The notes beneath the pieces were generated by a model. That model was given only the letters and a program-made list of their open reading frames with translations, searched no databases and was not told where the DNA came from. From assembly GCF_023734095.1 (NCBI RefSeq), contig NZ_AP024620.1, positions 2,600,501 through 2,664,500 on the forward strand: a stretch of 64,000 bases of DNA. The letters are read 5' to 3'. The position numbers were made by a program, and so were the translations under genes. This document shows, piece by piece, positions 7,090 to 54,639 of this stretch (position 1 is its first letter; every line of letters begins with the position of its first letter). Origin of the DNA: Moorella sp. Hama-1. Its GTDB lineage: Bacteria > Bacillota > DSM-521 > Neomoorellales > Neomoorellaceae.

Positions 7090-8376
7090 TCACCTACCCC
7101 CTTCTCCCACTCTCAGGGCTATCGCCCGGGCGTGGGCCTCCAGTCCCTCAGCCCGGGCCAGGTCCTGGATAAAGCCGCCGGCCGCCTGCAGGTAGGACGG
7201 GCTGGCGGCAATAAGACTGCTCCTTTTCATAAAGGTAGCCACGCTTAAAGGCGAATAGAACCTGGCCGTGCCCCCGGTGGGCAGGACATGGCTGGGGCCG
7301 GCCAGGTAATCCCCCAAGGGTTCGGAGCTGTAGGGTCCCAGGAAAATAGCCCCGGCATTCTCCACCCGGCCCAGCCAGGACCAGGGATCGGCTATATAGA
7401 GCTCCAGGTGCTCCGGCGCCAGGTCATTGGCCAGAGCCAGGGCTTCTTCCAGGTCGGCCGCTACCACGGCCGCCCCATAATCCTCCAGGGAACGGCTGGC
7501 TATCTCCCGCCGGGGCAGGGTAGCCAGCTGGCGATCTACCGCAGCGACCACTGCCCGGGCCAGGCCGGCATCAGGCGTAATCAGGACCGCCCCGGCCAGG
7601 TTGTCGTGTTCGGCCTGGGAGAGGAGATCAGCGGCCACCCACTCCGGCCGGGCATTACTGTCGGCAATGACGATGATCTCGCTGGGCCCGGCCAGCATAT
7701 CGATGTCCACCTGGCCATAGACTTCTTTCTTGGCCAGGGTGACGTAAATATTCCCCGGCCCGGCGATCTTATCCACCGGCGGCACCTTTTCCGTTCCATA
7801 GGCCAGGGCGGCTACAGCCTGGGCGCCCCCCATTTTATAGATCTCTTCCACCCCGGCCACAGACGCCGCCACCAGCAGCAGGGGCGGCAGGGTGCCGTCC
7901 CGGCGCGGCGGGGTGGCCAGGGCTAGCTCCGCTACCCCGGCCACCCGGGCCGGTACGGCGGTCATCAACACTGAGGAAGGATAAGCCGCCGTGCCGCCGG
8001 GCACATAAAGGCCCACCCGCCCCAGGGGCCGGCAGATCTGGCCCAGGATAGTACCTGTTCTATCCGTTTCCATCCAGGAACCTTTCAATTCCCGGCGATG
8101 GTAGGCGGTAATATTATCCCGGGCCTTGTAAATGGCCTGTACCAGGTGGTCGGGAACGGCCTGAAAGGCCGCCTCCCTTTCCTCCTGCGTCACTCGAAAA
8201 CCATTTTCCTGCAAGTCAACGCCGTCCAGTTCGCGGGTATAGCGCTCTACCGCGGCCTGGCCTGCTGCCTTTACATCGGCCACAATAGCCCGCACCCTGG
8301 TGCTCACTTCTTCCCGGGCCAGCAGGCGCCCGGACCAGCGCCGCCGCACCTCGGCGCCATCAAGTACTGGTAGCAA
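7090..8376 (-). CDS. hisD: Histidinol dehydrogenase
   Basis: A 428-residue zinc enzyme that oxidises histidinol to histidine in two NAD-dependent steps. Family motifs include GRVGLYVPGGTAAYPSS, AGPGNIYVT, LAGPSEIIVIAD and SQAEHDNLA, the last carrying zinc ligands, and GPSHVLPTGGTARF near the C-terminus. The start is TTG behind GGGAGGG, and the gene overlaps hisG by 17 bp, so the two are probably translationally coupled. Confidence 0.97.
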   Translation of the reverse strand: MLPVLDGAEVRRRWSGRLLAREEVSTRVRAIVADVKAAGQAAVERYTRELDGVDLQENGFRVTQEEREAAFQAVPDHLVQAIYKARDNITAYHRRELKGSWMETDRTGTILGQICRPLGRVGLYVPGGTAAYPSSVLMTAVPARVAGVAELALATPPRRDGTLPPLLLVAASVAGVEEIYKMGGAQAVAALAYGTEKVPPVDKIAGPGNIYVTLAKKEVYGQVDIDMLAGPSEIIVIADSNARPEWVAADLLSQAEHDNLAGAVLITPDAGLARAVVAAVDRQLATLPRREIASRSLEDYGAAVVAADLEEALALANDLAPEHLELYIADPWSWLGRVENAGAIFLGPYSSEPLGDYLAGPSHVLPTGGTARFYSPLSVATFMKRSSLIAASPSYLQAAGGFIQDLARAEGLEAHARAIALRVGEGGR

Positions 8377-47936: not shown

Positions 47937-48368
47937 TTATTTCAACCATAACAAAGGGAAGCCCAATTCATTGCTGGCTTCCTTTATTTCCGGATCACCG
48001 GTGACAACTGTGGCTTTATATTGTAAGGCAGCACCTATGGCAAAGGCATCAGCATAGGAAAGGAGATGTAAAGCCTTTACTTTCGCAGCAGCAAGGGTCA
48101 ATTCTTCATCACCCACGAGGAATTCCACAGGCCATTTTTTTACGGTCTCTAACACTTTTTTAGCTTCTATTTCTCCATTTCTACGATATACTCGATAATA
48201 TACTTCGCCTAAATTTACCCAGGTCAACAAAAGCTTGATCAGTTTTTCCCGAGCTTTTTGTAATAGTTCGGCCACCTTTTCGGCACCAGTCTCATCTTCC
48301 AGGTAGCAAATAACGGCATAGGCATCCAGGATATAATCCCCGGCGCTTTCAGGGTAGTCGCTGCTCAT
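47937..48368 (-). CDS. PIN-domain ribonuclease toxin
   Basis: 143 residues from the ATG at 48368 (GGAGGAAAAAC upstream). VapC-like acidic residues: DYILDAYAVICYLE, VNLGEVYYR, SYADAFAIGAAL and VTGDPEI. It overlaps the AbrB-type gene by 20 bp, an arrangement typical of toxin-antitoxin operons. The target RNA is unknown. Confidence 0.87.
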   Translation of the reverse strand: MSSDYPESAGDYILDAYAVICYLEDETGAEKVAELLQKAREKLIKLLLTWVNLGEVYYRVYRRNGEIEAKKVLETVKKWPVEFLVGDEELTLAAAKVKALHLLSYADAFAIGAALQYKATVVTGDPEIKEASNELGFPLLWLK

Positions 48369-48606
48369 GTTTTTCCTCCAACCGGCGTTCCTCCTGCTTA
48401 TAGGACGCATAAGTACTGGTAAGTGATCGTTTCCCTTTCAACATACCTCTGGCCTCAATTACCGGGTCAGAGGGAGCAGGAGTAATAATGATTTGCCCTT
48501 CCTTTTCGATAATTAAAGCGCGCCCCGGAGCCTGGAGGCCGTACTTGCGGCGCAACAGGGCCGGAATTACTAATTGCCCTTTTGCAGAAATCTTTACCAT
48601 AGGCAT
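48349..48606 (-). CDS. AbrB/MazE-type antitoxin
   Basis: 85 residues starting at ATG 48606 behind GGAGGG; the frame is open further up but unsupported. The swapped-hairpin AbrB domain is at the N-terminus (VKISAKGQLVIPALLRRKYG). The C-terminal toxin-binding tail includes SYKQEERRLEEKHEQ. A broken second copy of its end lies at 62290-62420. Confidence 0.88.
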   Translation of the reverse strand: MPMVKISAKGQLVIPALLRRKYGLQAPGRALIIEKEGQIIITPAPSDPVIEARGMLKGKRSLTSTYASYKQEERRLEEKHEQRLP

Positions 48607-48676
48607 TGCGATATCCCTCCTTTGTTTTACCGTTATAATAATTGTAAAACATCCGCTGAAAAGATACAACATCTCC

Positions 48677-48919
48677 TTAAAGGGAAAAAATAGCGTTGCC
48701 GCTGCCAGCCAGGTCAGTTGCTTCCGGAGCGGCAAAATCGAAGACTTCTTCAATAGACATGGAAAAAATCTTGGCAATACGGTACGCCAGCATTAACGAA
48801 GGATTGTATCTGCCATTTTCAATAGAAATAATAGTCTGCCGGGAGACCCCCACCAGCCGTGCCAATTCCTCCTGGGTCAACTGGCGCTGAAGTCGCAGAT
48901 CCTTCACGCGGTTTTCCAA
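48677..48919 (-). CDS. XRE-family helix-turn-helix regulator
   Basis: 80 residues; TTG start with AGAGGGA upstream. HTH at about 14-33 ([20 protein letters not shown], then ENGRYNPS), of the small YozG/Cro group with SIEEVFDF at the end. It is next to and codirectional with the antitoxin-toxin pair. It may be autonomous or part of the module's control. Confidence 0.87.
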
Positions 48920-49417: not shown

Positions 49418-50449
49418 TTAAGCCCCGGCCAGTTTAAGCAGCGGTTCCAGATCGTTGGATTGCGCCAGGAAATCCCGATAAAGGTCGCCATACGCCTGCA
49501 GGCGCTCCCTGGCGGTGTGAATGTTGAAGTCTTTGGGGCTGAACATCCCCTTCTTTACCTCCTCCCAGGTCAGGGGCGTCGAAACCGGCGCCCCGGGCAG
49601 GGGTCGCAGGCTGTAGGGAAAGGCCATGGACCGGCCGCGGGCGTTCTGCAGGTAGTCCAGGTAGACCCGATCTTTACGTTTCGGGATTGACCGCTCGATG
49701 GTAGCTTTCCGGGGGTAAACCCCTGCGACCAGCCGCGCCAGGTATCCCATGGCGGCTGTCACCTGGTGAAAGCTCCAGCGAGGTTTAAGGGGGATAAAGA
49801 TATGCAACCCCGTAGCCCCGGAGGTTTTAGGATAGCCGCTGAGGTGAAACTCCTTTAAAGCCTGGTGGACCAGGAGGGCGATATCCAGGACATCTTTAAA
49901 AGTCACCCCCGGCGCCGGGTCCAGATCCATGACGGCGATATCGGGATGCTCCAGGTGGCTGGCCCGGGAGAGCCAGGCATGGATCTCGATGCACCCCTGG
50001 TTGGCCAGCCAGACCAGGGTGGCTTCGTTGTTGCCGAGGATATAATTGATGGTCTTATCGCTGTCAGCATGGTAGATGGGTGCCGTGGCTATCCAATCCG
50101 GGGCGTAGGCCGGGCATTCCTTCTGGTAAAAAGCCTCCCCGGTGATGCCATCGGGGTAGCGCTTTAGTACCAGGGGACGATCCCGCAGGTAGGGCAGGAT
50201 CACCGGGGCCATGTCGATATAATATTTAATCAGATCCAGCTTGGTCAGGCCTTCCGGCCAGAAAACCTTGTCCAGGTTGGTCAGTTTCAACTGCCGGCCC
50301 TGCCTGGCTTCCCGGCCCGCCAGGCCTACCCCCTGCCCATCTGCTAGTTGAGTCCCCACCGCCGTTCCTGGCAAGGGCGGTGGTAAGGACCGGTCCACCG
50401 CCGGCGCCGGGTTTACAGAGATCTCTTGATTCCTGTTTATACGGCACAA
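49418..50449 (-). CDS. Standalone LigD-type polymerase, copy 2
   Basis: About 290 conserved residues with the same motifs as copy 1: NLDKVFWPEGLTKLDLIKYY, VMDLDPAPGV, SGATGLHIFIPLKP and YLDYLQNARGRSMAFPYSLR. The first 50 or so residues look non-homologous and Pro/Gly-rich. The strong SD GAAGGAGG near 50455 is set for a different frame (GTG-CCG), so the true start is unclear. No ligase domain. About 70% alike to copy 1 by eye. Confidence 0.88.
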   Translation of the reverse strand: MCRINRNQEISVNPAPAVDRSLPPPLPGTAVGTQLADGQGVGLAGREARQGRQLKLTNLDKVFWPEGLTKLDLIKYYIDMAPVILPYLRDRPLVLKRYPDGITGEAFYQKECPAYAPDWIATAPIYHADSDKTINYILGNNEATLVWLANQGCIEIHAWLSRASHLEHPDIAVMDLDPAPGVTFKDVLDIALLVHQALKEFHLSGYPKTSGATGLHIFIPLKPRWSFHQVTAAMGYLARLVAGVYPRKATIERSIPKRKDRVYLDYLQNARGRSMAFPYSLRPLPGAPVSTPLTWEEVKKGMFSPKDFNIHTARERLQAYGDLYRDFLAQSNDLEPLLKLAGA

Positions 50450-50790: not shown

Positions 50791-51861
50791 TCAATTAATA
50801 TTACTTGTGCCAGCTCTACCGGCCATGGTAACTGCCGCTGCCCCCAGGGCTGCGGCCTTAACCATCAGCCCGGCAACTATACCCAGGTAAGGCAACCAGG
50901 TGACCAGGCTAATGATGAGGATACCGGCCAGGGTGGCGGCGTAGATTTCCGCCTGCCGGCTCCCCAGGGCAGCCAGGATCCTTTTACCGGTTGCCAGGCT
51001 TAAACCCGCCATCCCCAGGAAGTAGAGGCAGGCCAGGGCCAGCCACAATAGACCCGCCAGGGGAATGCCCAGGATAGTTATAAATAGCAGGACGGTGGCC
51101 GGCAGGGCCAGGAAGGCGATGAGGAAACCCCACAACAAACTCTTCCCCGGCAGGAGCATGGCGGTCTCCGCCACGCGCGCAGTTGTTCCCGGAAAGATGA
51201 TGCTAATAAACAACAGTACAATGGCCATCAGGATGAGGGTGAAAAGGCGCCACCAGAAGGCCGGGGAAGTCAGGCCGGGTAAGGGATAGCCCCGCAACCA
51301 CTGGCCCACCTGCTCCAGGAAGGCCTGTTGCAGCGCCAGCTGGACCTCGTTTCCGCCTACTACCGCACCCGGCTCCTTCTGTAGCGAACCGCCGATGACT
51401 ACCAGGTCGCCGCCCACCTGCGCCGTGGAGGCCAGGATGAGGGGCCCGCCTACTACGACCAGGTCTCCGGCAATGCGGCCACTGACCGCTACCGGCCCGG
51501 CTACGGCTATTACGTCCCTGTTGACTCTACCGCTGATGCTTACCTGTCCACCCACGGCCACAACGCTGTTGTCGACTTCGCCGTTGACCTCCACCCTGCC
51601 GCCGGTACCTACTACATCCCGGGCCCTGCCGTCTACCGTGACGGGGCCGAAGATGGCCAGGGCGTTTTCCACCTGCTGGCCGGCAGGCACCACGTAGCCG
51701 CCGCCGAACCGGGTCAGGTTTTGCGCCCGGGCCGGGGGCGGGTTAAAGCTGAAAGCCAGGGCCAGCGCCAGGAGAAAGGTACCTAACACCCGCCAGTATA
51801 TCCCGGGGCAATTATTCCTTCCTGCCATCCATGGCTGCAACTGCCGACTGCGCAACCGCAT
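50791..51861 (-). CDS. Exported polymer-forming (bactofilin-like) membrane protein A
   Basis: 356 residues from ATG 51861 (GAAGGAGG upstream). Signal or anchor segment at about 24-46. Then comes a right-handed beta-helix of about six short repeats (VEVNGEVDNSVVAVGGQVSI, GRVNRDVIAVAGPVAVSGRI) at about 55-160, similar to polymer-forming cytoskeletal domains. A C-terminal half with five or six membrane helices follows. Predicted to display the beta-helix outside. It shares its architecture with the gene upstream, and both follow an ECF sigma / anti-sigma pair. Confidence 0.82.
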   Translation of the reverse strand: MRLRSRQLQPWMAGRNNCPGIYWRVLGTFLLALALAFSFNPPPARAQNLTRFGGGYVVPAGQQVENALAIFGPVTVDGRARDVVGTGGRVEVNGEVDNSVVAVGGQVSISGRVNRDVIAVAGPVAVSGRIAGDLVVVGGPLILASTAQVGGDLVVIGGSLQKEPGAVVGGNEVQLALQQAFLEQVGQWLRGYPLPGLTSPAFWWRLFTLILMAIVLLFISIIFPGTTARVAETAMLLPGKSLLWGFLIAFLALPATVLLFITILGIPLAGLLWLALACLYFLGMAGLSLATGKRILAALGSRQAEIYAATLAGILIISLVTWLPYLGIVAGLMVKAAALGAAAVTMAGRAGTSNIN

Positions 51862-51870
51862 CAGGCCTCC

Positions 51871-52010
51871 TTCAAAAATAGGGTTATGGCAGCTATCGGC
51901 ATTGTGCAAAGTTTACGCCTGGGAAACCAAGTCGCCCTCCGCCTGTACCCTCCAGCCCCTTTACTCAACCGGTATTTTATAGTTCGCTGGCGGGAGTGCT
52001 AGCTGCCATA
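51871..52010. repeat. R repeat, copy E (deleted internally)
   Basis: Edge ttcaaaaatagggttatggc is followed after a deletion by gggaaaccaagtcgccctcc and gcctgtaccctccagcccct, which match the R interior, then cgctggcgggagtgctagct. Lies between the two polymer-forming genes, in the usual orientation, with the SD of protein A at its edge. Confidence 0.65.
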
Positions 52011-52027
52011 GTTGACTCCCGTCATTT

Positions 52028-53188
52028 TCATTGTTGCTGGTTTTCCCGGCCGGGGTCCGGCATGGCACCCCGACCCTCCGGGGGGATGTCTATAACTTCC
52101 CCGGTGCCGGGGGTGCCCTTCACCTGGTCATCTATCACCTTCCCGGACGGGGGTTTGCCGCCAAACCAGGGCCGGTTGGTACCGAAACGGGTAATCAGGA
52201 CGGCCCCCATACCGATAACAGCCGCCAGGACCCAGATGAGCATACCTACTACCGGCAGGCTCTGGGCGAGCCAGAGCAGGGCCACGCCCATTGCCGCCTG
52301 GACCAGCAGGGTTTGACCCCCTACCGCCGGCCACTTCCTCCCCAGGGCCCGCTCCACCTGCTGGCCGACCACCAACCCGGTCAGGACCAGGCCGATCAAC
52401 ACGATTAATGGCAGGATCAGGGCGACAGCTATGGCTACCGGGATACCGATAATGGTCAGCACCAGGGCCAGCAGGACTACCGGCAGGGCGATCCAGCCCA
52501 GGAATCCCACTCCCAGGCAGCGGCCGGGGTTGGCTTCCAGGGTAACCTGCATGGCGGTTATCCTGGTTGGGAACAGGGCCATGGCTACCGCCGTAATGGC
52601 GATCAGGCCCAGCAGGTAGAGAAGCCAGCCTGCCAGGCGGCCACCAAAACCCGGTTCGTTGCGGTAGTATCCTGCTGATGGCGGGAAGTAGTGCCCCCCG
52701 GTAAGATCCCGGGCCCCGGAGCCCATAGTTATATGTCCCTGCACCTGGGCGCCGTTTTCCCGGACAATATCGCCCCGGATGACGGTGACATTACCCTGGA
52801 CGAAGGAACCGGAGCGCAGGGTGACACTTCCGTTTATAGCCGTTACGTTGCCAAGGACCCGGCCCCGGACTTCAATGTCGCCATTCATGACCACTACGTT
52901 GCCCTGGATAATCTCATCCGGCCTGATGACCACATCGCCGTTAAAACGCACCATATTATCCCCGGCCGCGGCCAGGGCCTCGCCGTCTATCCCCTGCGGG
53001 TCAACCCGGACTACGGCGTCACCGGAAGTGAACGCCATCCCCGGGGAGGGGGATAGAGCTGAAGCCGGCGCTGCCGTAGCCGCCGTTGCTGGGCCCGTAA
53101 CCTCTCCAGCCATAGCCGCCGGCAGGCCCGGCGCCACCAGCAACAGCAGCCCCAGGGCCAGGGAGCTAATAAGCTTTTTAGCAAGCAT
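52028..53188 (-). CDS. Exported polymer-forming (bactofilin-like) membrane protein B
   Basis: 386 residues from ATG 53188 (GGAGGTCACAAAT upstream). Signal peptide at 1-27 (ends PAAMAGEV), beta-helix repeats at about 65-150 (GDVVIRPDEIIQGNVVVMNG, GRVLGNVTAINGSVTLRSG), then about five membrane helices and a Pro/Gly-rich hydrophilic tail. Paralogous in layout to protein A. It follows the anti-sigma gene, so it is a likely target of the sigma factor. Confidence 0.82.
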   Translation of the reverse strand: MLAKKLISSLALGLLLLVAPGLPAAMAGEVTGPATAATAAPASALSPSPGMAFTSGDAVVRVDPQGIDGEALAAAGDNMVRFNGDVVIRPDEIIQGNVVVMNGDIEVRGRVLGNVTAINGSVTLRSGSFVQGNVTVIRGDIVRENGAQVQGHITMGSGARDLTGGHYFPPSAGYYRNEPGFGGRLAGWLLYLLGLIAITAVAMALFPTRITAMQVTLEANPGRCLGVGFLGWIALPVVLLALVLTIIGIPVAIAVALILPLIVLIGLVLTGLVVGQQVERALGRKWPAVGGQTLLVQAAMGVALLWLAQSLPVVGMLIWVLAAVIGMGAVLITRFGTNRPWFGGKPPSGKVIDDQVKGTPGTGEVIDIPPEGRGAMPDPGRENQQQ

Positions 53189-53261
53189 ATTTGTGACCTC
53201 CATAAATTTTTTAAGATGGGAAAAGGGGAGGGGCAAATTCGCCCCTCTAAGCCACCCTCCA

Positions 53262-53942
53262 TTATTGGTAGGTACGAGGTTTTAACATCCTTTCCAGGAG
53301 CAGGCCCGCCGCCAGGCCCGGCGCCAGTAAAGCGGCCCAGGTTGCCGGGGGAACACTCTGGAGCAGGGTAACCAGGGTATCCCCCAGCACCCAGAGTAAA
53401 AAGACCTTTTCTCCTACAGCGTCTACCACGCCAGCCAGCAACTGGATAAGGCCGGCCAGTTGCCACTGGCAGAATGCTACCAGGCCTGTTATTGCATCCT
53501 GGATGAATGGTACCGTTACGCTTATGAACGTACTTATACCCCGGGTCAGCCCGGGCAACCTGCCCCCTGCCAGGAGCCAGCCGCCCAGGGCTAGGCAGAA
53601 GCCCAGCACCAGCCCGGCGAGTAGCGAAACTGGTTGCCGGGGCGGGTTGCCGGACAGCAGGGACGGCCGCGCCGCCTGCTGTTCTCCGGGCCTGGTTACC
53701 GGCACCGGTGGCATCGCCTCATCCTTCTCCAGGGCTGCCAGCACCCGGGCAGTAAAGTCCGGCCCCGGATCTTCAGGAGGCAAATCCAGGAGGGCAAAGG
53801 TTTTCTGCCAGCGCGCTAGTTCCCGGCGGCAAGCAGGGCAGCAATCCAGGTGCTCTCGCAAGGCATGAGCCTCTTCCTGCCCCAGTTCACCCGCCAAATA
53901 GTCCGGGATAATTTCCTGCCAGTAAACACATCCTTTAGCCAT
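53262..53942 (-). CDS. Zinc-finger anti-sigma factor
   Basis: 226 residues. The N-terminal anti-sigma domain has the zinc motif HLDCCPACRREL (His-x3-Cys-x2-Cys). A hydrophobic segment at about 108-128, one or two further ones near 160-205 and an Arg/Lys end follow. It overlaps the sigma gene by 8 bp and would hold that sigma factor at the membrane until a signal arrives. Confidence 0.9.
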   Translation of the reverse strand: MAKGCVYWQEIIPDYLAGELGQEEAHALREHLDCCPACRRELARWQKTFALLDLPPEDPGPDFTARVLAALEKDEAMPPVPVTRPGEQQAARPSLLSGNPPRQPVSLLAGLVLGFCLALGGWLLAGGRLPGLTRGISTFISVTVPFIQDAITGLVAFCQWQLAGLIQLLAGVVDAVGEKVFLLWVLGDTLVTLLQSVPPATWAALLAPGLAAGLLLERMLKPRTYQ

Positions 53943-54519
53943 CCTGTAACCCTCCTTCCTCCAGCACCGGGGCCAGCATCTTCTTGAGCAACAGGCGGCC
54001 GCGGCGAATCCTGGTCTTGACCGTATTGAGGGGTAGTGCCAGCGTCCTGGCTATTTCTTCGTAGCTCAAGTCCTGGAAGTGCCAGAGGACTATGGGTACC
54101 CGGTAATCCCAGGGTAGGGCCGCCACGGCCTCCTTGACCATACGCCTGGTTTCCGCTTCCTCCCAGAGTTTAGCAGGGCCGGCCCTGCTGTCTGCCACCG
54201 CCAGGAGGGTTTCCTCGTCCACCGGGGTAGCGGCCGGCCCTCCCCTCTCCCGCCGGCGCTGCCGCCAGTGGTCGCGACTGGCGTTGGCGGCAATGGCCAG
54301 CAGCCAGGGAGCCAGGGCGGCACCAGGCTGGAAACCGGGCAGGGCGCGGTAGGCCCGCAGGAATACCTCCTGGGCGACATCCAGGCTCTCTTCCCGGTCC
54401 TGGAGCAGGCGCAGGGCCACGGTATATACCTTTTTCTGGTAGCGCGCCACCAGCTCGGCAAAGGCACCCTCATCGCCCTGCTGGCTCAAGGCTATCAGCT
54501 CGGCATCCGACCGGTCCAA
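53935..54519 (-). CDS. ECF-type RNA polymerase sigma factor
   Basis: 194 residues of the SigW/RpoE-like type. Region 2 is at about 10-80 (AFAELVARYQKKVYTVALRL, DVAQEVFLRAYRALPGF) and region 4 at about 125-180 (LPWDYRVPIVLWHFQDLSYE, then IARTLALPLNTVKTRIRRGR). It is the first gene of a four-gene unit with its anti-sigma and two envelope proteins. A 17-bp perfect palindrome lies upstream (54599-54638). Confidence 0.95.
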   Translation of the reverse strand: MDRSDAELIALSQQGDEGAFAELVARYQKKVYTVALRLLQDREESLDVAQEVFLRAYRALPGFQPGAALAPWLLAIAANASRDHWRQRRRERGGPAATPVDEETLLAVADSRAGPAKLWEEAETRRMVKEAVAALPWDYRVPIVLWHFQDLSYEEIARTLALPLNTVKTRIRRGRLLLKKMLAPVLEEGGLQDG

Positions 54520-54598
54520 AGCAAGCTCCTCCCTGGCCTTTCTATACTGTACTACCTGGATTCTACCCCGATTGTTTCACCCGGTAATTAAAAAATTA

Positions 54599-54638
54599 AG
54601 GATAAAATTTTACCGCCCGGCCGGTAAAATTTTATCCT
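54599..54638. repeat. 17-bp perfect palindrome upstream of the sigma operon
   Basis: aggataaaattttaccg, loop cccggc, cggtaaaattttatcct. It is about 80 bp upstream of the sigma start on minus and far from any plus gene. Its symmetry suits a dimeric regulator or a two-way terminator (AT-rich ends, GC centre). Confidence 0.75.
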
Positions 54639-54639
54639 C

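Follow-up and report, generated by a model that had tools for sequence, protein, structure and literature searches.

A 64-kb stretch of the Moorella sp. Hama-1 genome (referred to as the window) contains an operon in which an extracytoplasmic function (ECF) sigma factor and a membrane anti-sigma factor are followed by genes for two proteins predicted to be exported, raising the question of what such a switch controls and what its products might do at the cell surface. The operon comprises four minus-strand open reading frames (ORFs) running from position 54519 down to 50791, which encode the sigma factor, a zinc-finger membrane anti-sigma factor and two paralogues, referred to as P2 and P1, each made up of a signal peptide, a β-helix resembling that of bactofilins and five predicted membrane helices, in that order. 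The four genes named in the initial annotation were all recovered, with matching domains. On balance, we think it somewhat more likely than not that the locus is an autoregulated, self-amplifying, sigma-W-like envelope-stress operon, the effectors of which are outward-facing bactofilin-like membrane proteins acting as one complex.

The sigma/anti-sigma pair and its putative promoter

The sigma gene (53935..54519, as all features below on the minus strand) has a TTG start behind GGAGGAG. Its product contains sigma-70 regions 2 and 4 only (Pfam Sigma70_r2, E 1.2e-17; Sigma70_r4_2, E 1.2e-13), which defines it as an ECF factor. As judged from its sequence it is SigW-like rather than SigW, since both NCBIfam SigW models score below their cut-offs (138.1 bits against 209 for PRK09641, the best row, and 119.9 against 243.1 for TIGR02948). 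The anti-sigma gene (53262..53942) overlaps the sigma gene by 8 nt and encodes an N-terminal zinc finger (HLDCCPAC; zf-HC2, 39.8 bits, above the cut-off of 22.2) followed by three hydrophobic segments identified by hydropathy; a zf-HC2 domain and membrane segments encoded in the same operon as the sigma factor identify it as an anti-sigma factor. The window's genome contains seven more ECF-like matches, one of which (L217, G000:C1:2720942-2721463) carries an in-frame TAG and is perhaps a decaying sigma gene.

A putative ECF-type promoter, TGAAAC-N17-GGTA (54553..54579), starts 60 nt upstream of the sigma start codon and is the single match to this pattern within the window, where 0.40 would be expected. 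The motif, in the form TGAAAC-N-[C/G]GTA shortly before the sigma gene, is present in 11/11 loci with the four-gene arrangement, 0/36 other sigma loci and 3/1154 other genes. The spacing to the listed sigma start is 53–60 nt in nine of the four-gene loci and 12 nt in L095 and L096, the listed starts of which are probably too early. The promoter marks the four-gene clade and not the whole sigma-linked family, because the other 36 sigma loci are without it. From the conservation of the motif we infer that the sigma factor autoregulates its own operon. The control by sigma and anti-sigma factor suggested initially thus gains support from both the conserved gene order and the conserved promoter of autoregulatory type. 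Directly upstream of the promoter there is an intrinsic-terminator-like hairpin of 18 pairs followed by a T run (54598..54639), which would shield the operon from minus-strand transcription arriving from upstream; such sites are overall not above chance in number (4 found, 5.7 expected).

The four genes are kept together in eleven non-redundant loci, contrary to the separation that the initial annotation had named as grounds for refutation: the window, L034, L035, L036, L095, L096, L097, L099 (Syntrophaceticus schinkii), L101 (Desulfotomaculum copahuensis), L103 (Thermacetogenium) and L134, with L098, L100, L132, L136 and L146 being duplicates or near-duplicates. In this list and in the promoter counts, loci identical over the last 80 residues of the family protein or the last 60 of the sigma factor were treated as one. 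L134 and L101 were first labelled as other arrangements, as an opposite-strand ORF had been kept over the anti-sigma gene; the zinc-finger ORF was then seen there. In D. copahuensis (L101:5602-10031), P2 and P1 are fused in one frame of 871 residues. Downstream of this fusion lie genes for an M23 peptidase and an ordinary bactofilin (91.9 bits), so that both kinds of bactofilin-type protein are encoded side by side. In the family tree, P2 and P1 each fall into a clade of their own (12 rows, including the duplicate L098, and 11 rows, support 98 each) with largely matching branching orders, and on this phylogenetic evidence they are inherited together. A recent tandem duplication was rejected as the origin of the pair, as the two clades are not sisters in the FastTree phylogeny, some deep forks of which are open.

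Predicted fold, export and topology of P2 and P1

The likely start of P2 (52028..53188; listed ORF 52028-53236) is an internal ATG at 53188 preceded by GGAGG, and that of P1 (50791..51861; listed ORF 50791-51909) an internal ATG at 51861 preceded by AAGGAGG, both judged from sequence. The predicted signal peptide of P2 (53108..53188), based on a sequence reading and the positive N-terminus common in the family, would be cleaved after AMA; that of P1 (51724..51861), read from sequence, has a long N-region and would be cleaved after ARA. AlphaFold models, built on alignments of the window proteins with proteins from related loci, have a mean predicted local distance difference test score (pLDDT) of 85.0 for P1 and 74.4 for P2. 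They predict a β-helix (residues 80-157 of P2, 52721..52954; the longer residues 49-176 of P1, 51337..51720) followed by a membrane domain of five long helices (residues 182-334 of P2, 52190..52648; residues 201-353 of P1, 50806..51264), which in P2 is followed by a C-terminal tail.

The models suggest that P2 and P1 share the β-helix fold of bactofilins, which head the list for both proteins in a second look at the Protein Data Bank (PDB). For P1, the Thermus thermophilus bactofilin (6rib/6ria) comes first (Z 14.1, root-mean-square deviation (rmsd) 1.4, 95 residues), with other β-helix proteins close behind at Z 13.3 and below. For P2, the first three matches are bactofilin entries (Z 11.5, 11.2 and 9.6; next 8.3), the best with an rmsd of 1.8 over 82 residues. 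With Foldseek, neither model reached an E-value of 0.001 against any structure, the values against 6rib being 0.041 for P1 and 0.14 for P2. First by E-value for both was the SV2A transporter; as its probability (0.38 and 0.21) and its TM-score were low, this match was set aside as a fortuitous combination of helices with a β-helix. In profile searches of PDB sequences BacA alone matched (E 0.0022 and 0.0029), and the Pfam Bactofilin model (PF04519, cut-off 27.9 bits) scored 26.1 bits for P2 and 16.2 bits for P1, with matches in 13/25 relatives at E up to 0.1 (best 9.6e-8). Kinship with bactofilins is therefore argued from the fold together with a weak profile signal, because neither the Foldseek threshold nor the Pfam cut-off was reached.

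These structural matches concern the β-helix, as the second look barely covers the membrane domain. No convincing match to the latter was found among Pfam or NCBIfam families, and this part of the family has no name in either. The best conserved motifs, TIIGIPL and [RK]FGTN[RK]PW, are located here.

The β-helix is predicted to face outside, held by the five-helix domain. A hydrophobic N-terminal segment is present in 125/134 family proteins and follows K/R in 106 of these (two fragments were left out of the count, and in several of the nine ORFs that lack the segment the start is placed too far upstream), and L115, L124 and L154 carry an N-terminal lipobox. The pattern also occurs in L134, L145, L147 and L230, at positions that were not accepted as real lipoboxes. 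The net charge per sequence is +3.6 before the signal, –3.4 in the β-helix and +2.8 in the tail. Being first in order and behind a signal peptide, the β-helix would lie outside, and the odd number of helices that follows places the tail inside; consistent with this, the D. copahuensis fusion has a second signal-like segment after the P2 tail. The initial proposal of an exported bactofilin-type β-helix joined to a multi-helix membrane domain is thus borne out by signal peptides, models and PDB matches, and structure prediction for both proteins puts the β-helix outside and not inside the cell.

P2 and P1 have the same kind of short right-handed β-helix as bactofilins (PF04519; 6rib/6ria; Caulobacter crescentus BacA, 2n3d), but differ in their predicted export, in having a C-terminal five-helix membrane domain, in their position behind a sigma/anti-sigma pair and in scoring below the Pfam cut-off. 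The relevant sections of PMC12448750 place bactofilins usually at the inner face of the membrane, with about 3.2% having N-terminal membrane helices. By prediction, from the signal peptides, some lipoboxes and the odd helix number, P2 and P1 do not share this cytoplasmic or inner-face location, and an assignment as ordinary bactofilins was dismissed on this predicted outward location and the missed Pfam cut-off. Proteus mirabilis CcmA likewise combines a bactofilin domain with membrane segments, but these are N-terminal and a processed peripheral form exists; neither a five-helix C-terminal domain nor an ECF linkage is described for it in those sections (PMC12448750).

Distribution and gene neighbourhood of the family

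With a profile of 25 relatives, the family was found in 93/398 genomes of the window's phylum and in 83/149 genomes of the phylum drawn around an Acidobacteria locus. In the former, an ECF gene lies within two genes upstream on the same strand in 40/104 family loci, compared with 3/172 background genes located five or more genes away (Fisher p 1.8e-16); this count omits the remnants L054 and L055 and family matches below 200 residues and retains four loci cut off upstream. A zinc-finger motif is present between the sigma and family genes in 43/47 non-redundant sigma-linked loci, the exceptions being L104, L107, L162 and L171 (49/54 rows before the 7 duplicates were merged). Longest-frame ORF calls had concealed the anti-sigma gene in some loci (e.g. 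L101, L115 and L124), where it became visible on a second look. Among 20 Acidobacteriota loci, the best-scoring from the 83 genomes with a match and not a random draw, a sigma gene lies upstream on the same strand in 19 and the zinc-finger motif is present in 15; in the sole locus without sigma, the sequence ends 442 bases upstream of the match. The promoter conservation, the 40/104 against 3/172 contrast, the zinc-finger counts and the Acidobacteriota loci together reject a chance gene order. Mapping the sigma-linked state onto the family tree requires 20 changes, which suggests repeated gain or loss of the association and not a single inherited origin.

The neighbours of the family genes are wall and membrane homeostasis genes, in keeping with the envelope-stress setting first suggested for the operon. 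The genes cdaA-cdaR-glmM lie directly downstream of the family gene in 12 loci, in three of which (L133, L135 and L140) the order is sigma, anti-sigma, family gene, cdaA, cdaR, glmM. A toastrack gene is near the family gene in 6 loci (adjacent in 5, three genes on in L155), a YkuD L,D-transpeptidase gene in 9 (adjacent in 8), and an MprF-like gene with a glycosyltransferase gene lies downstream in 4. A LiaF-like gene is found within six genes in 8 rows, corresponding to five four-gene loci once duplicates are merged. The sigma-linked form is a common setting of a wider family that in other places is found beside cdaA-cdaR-glmM, toastrack, LiaF, MprF-like and L,D-transpeptidase genes. In a branch with a longer β-helix (L191, L194-L197 and L199-L201), the YkuD L,D-transpeptidase beside the family gene has peptidoglycan-binding domains, and the other side is mostly occupied by an SKI2-type helicase (DEAD and DSHCT). 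In the window's genome cdaA-cdaR-glmM-glmS has a separate location with neither a sigma nor a family gene, the gene names having been assigned partly by eye.

Among the ten other genomes of the genus searched, family matches were found in two. G009 has a third-paralogue type alone, and G006 has this type and a 123-residue remnant holding the signal peptide of P2 (L054:6057-6428), in which the P2 start and signal peptide are continued by an unrelated frame, as expected for what is left of a lost P2 gene. This patchy distribution suggests loss or gene transfer. The third family member in the window's genome (L063:6119-7279 and 7399-7665; G000:C1 ~2729118-2730664) lies beside genes for HlyD, an ATP-binding cassette (ABC) ATPase and MacB; the same locus contains an 88-residue remnant of a second P1 copy, the middle of which is seemingly deleted, and G006 has a broken copy at the same place (L055). 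Within the window, P1 is adjoined downstream by a gene for a stand-alone LigD primase-polymerase domain (49418-50449, minus strand, 305.8 bits), and a PIN-domain gene with a MazE-like antitoxin ORF slightly below the Pfam cut-off (47937-48777, minus strand) is likely a toxin-antitoxin pair.

Proposed function and alternatives

The Bacillus subtilis SigW-RsiW system similarly pairs a SigW-type ECF factor with a zinc-finger membrane anti-sigma factor under autoregulation, the latter being putative here, from the conserved motif. According to the portions of PMC6171935 that deal with this locus, sigW-rsiW is autoregulated and adjoins cdaA-cdaR-glmM-glmS, the two operons being direct neighbours with no such gene between them, whereas a family gene lies between in L133, L135 and L140. 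By analogy, the module would work like a sigma-W system with a new kind of output. An envelope insult would remove the anti-sigma factor and free the sigma factor, which would then raise expression of its own operon and thereby of P2 and P1. Both would be exported, with the β-helix on the outer face and the tail inside, and as one complex could shield or organise the outer face of the membrane and the wall machinery.

Partners of the phage shock protein (PSP) and Lia responses (toastrack, DUF4097/LiaF C-terminal; LiaI-LiaF-TM; PspC) likewise combine a β-helix with a multi-helix membrane region in envelope-stress operons. In the passages of PMC11237479 concerned with it, toastrack tends to follow the membrane part, and an intracellular position is proposed for it, whereas the β-helix of P2 and P1 precedes the membrane part and comes after a signal peptide. 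P2 and P1 would therefore be an outside analogue, performing at the outer face the task proposed for toastrack, LiaF and PspC at the inner face. No match to DUF4097 or LiaF-like_C was found for P1, P2 or the 25 relatives, and P2 and P1 are neither toastrack nor LiaF proteins.

Several observations weigh against a single autoregulated operon with dedicated outward-facing effectors. The gap between P2 and P1 is 166 nt, so a separate P1 promoter is possible. No wider regulon was seen in the genome, where the CGTA form of the promoter pattern, used for this count in place of the GGTA of the window's own site, occurs 9 times and the reversed control 16 times. None of the ten other genomes of the genus searched yielded the four-gene operon. 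In the calling used, 64/104 family loci have no adjacent ECF gene, so control by a sigma factor does not apply throughout the family. As regards topology, internal loops 1 and 3 are weakly positive or neutral (net charge –0.14 and +0.42).

LiaF is a regulator within the Lia system, and the β-helix proteins could similarly be the sensor part, holding or shielding the anti-sigma factor until stress occurs, and thus co-regulators and not effectors. The family genes come directly after the anti-sigma gene in most sigma-linked loci, a usual place for regulatory partners, and the ectodomain is well placed for sensing. The loci without a nearby ECF gene speak against such a role, as does the retention of two members where one sensor would suffice, and we regard it as unlikely, if still worth taking seriously. 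Less likely again is that P2 and P1 act as genuine bactofilins outside the cytoplasm, polymerising into a membrane-tied surface or periplasmic cytoskeleton. Bactofilins are the best fold match of both models, and D. copahuensis has the M23 peptidase and ordinary bactofilin genes directly downstream of its fusion. As described in the sections of PMC12448750 on polymerisation, this is driven in C. crescentus BacA by Phe F130 at the C-terminal polymer interface. In the family the corresponding column remains hydrophobic, but Phe is mostly absent (V 22, I 10, L 2, F 2; n=36). This loss is not decisive, because the ordinary bactofilin of the window's genome also lacks the Phe, having Leu (by eye). 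End-to-end filaments of the bactofilin type are nevertheless not assured, since Val or Ile mostly takes the place of the Phe and the β-helix continues at its C-terminal end, a bactofilin polymer interface, into the membrane domain. The Pfam scores also speak against true bactofilins, that of P2 lying below the cut-off and that of P1 far below it. A small transporter or channel, with the membrane domain as the working part and the β-helix as an external gate or substrate dock, would account for the best conserved motifs residing in the membrane domain and for the MacB, ABC and HlyD genes beside the third member. The Pfam and NCBIfam searches gave no convincing transporter-family match, the structure searches barely cover this part, and we consider this the most doubtful of the explanations.

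Among the matches listed in open-licence PMC (excluding preprints and supplementary ECF-group catalogues; in one case 15 of 88 rows), no paper linked bactofilin with ECF, anti-sigma, SigW or c-di-AMP (cyclic di-AMP), or polymer-forming with ECF, and none of the five best rows for DUF583 contained that term. Beyond the stress-operon reading preferred here, a broader and distinctly tentative proposal is that the family is a widespread outward-facing counterpart of PSP/Lia, exported and bactofilin-like with a private five-helix domain, and deployed by ECF factors in Bacillota and Acidobacteriota; in some lineages, two distinct paralogues might form a shared lattice at the surface, which would stabilise the membrane and link stress to the synthesis of c-di-AMP and peptidoglycan.

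ECF sigma factors are abundant, and what they control is often obscure; in the present case, members of one family are found time and again with an ECF switch and with genes for the wall and membrane. The pairing of sigma factor and family protein in two distant bacterial groups suggests a means of protecting the cell surface that has been overlooked, which would give envelope-stress control a concrete target and, by prediction, places a cytoskeleton-type fold outside the cell.

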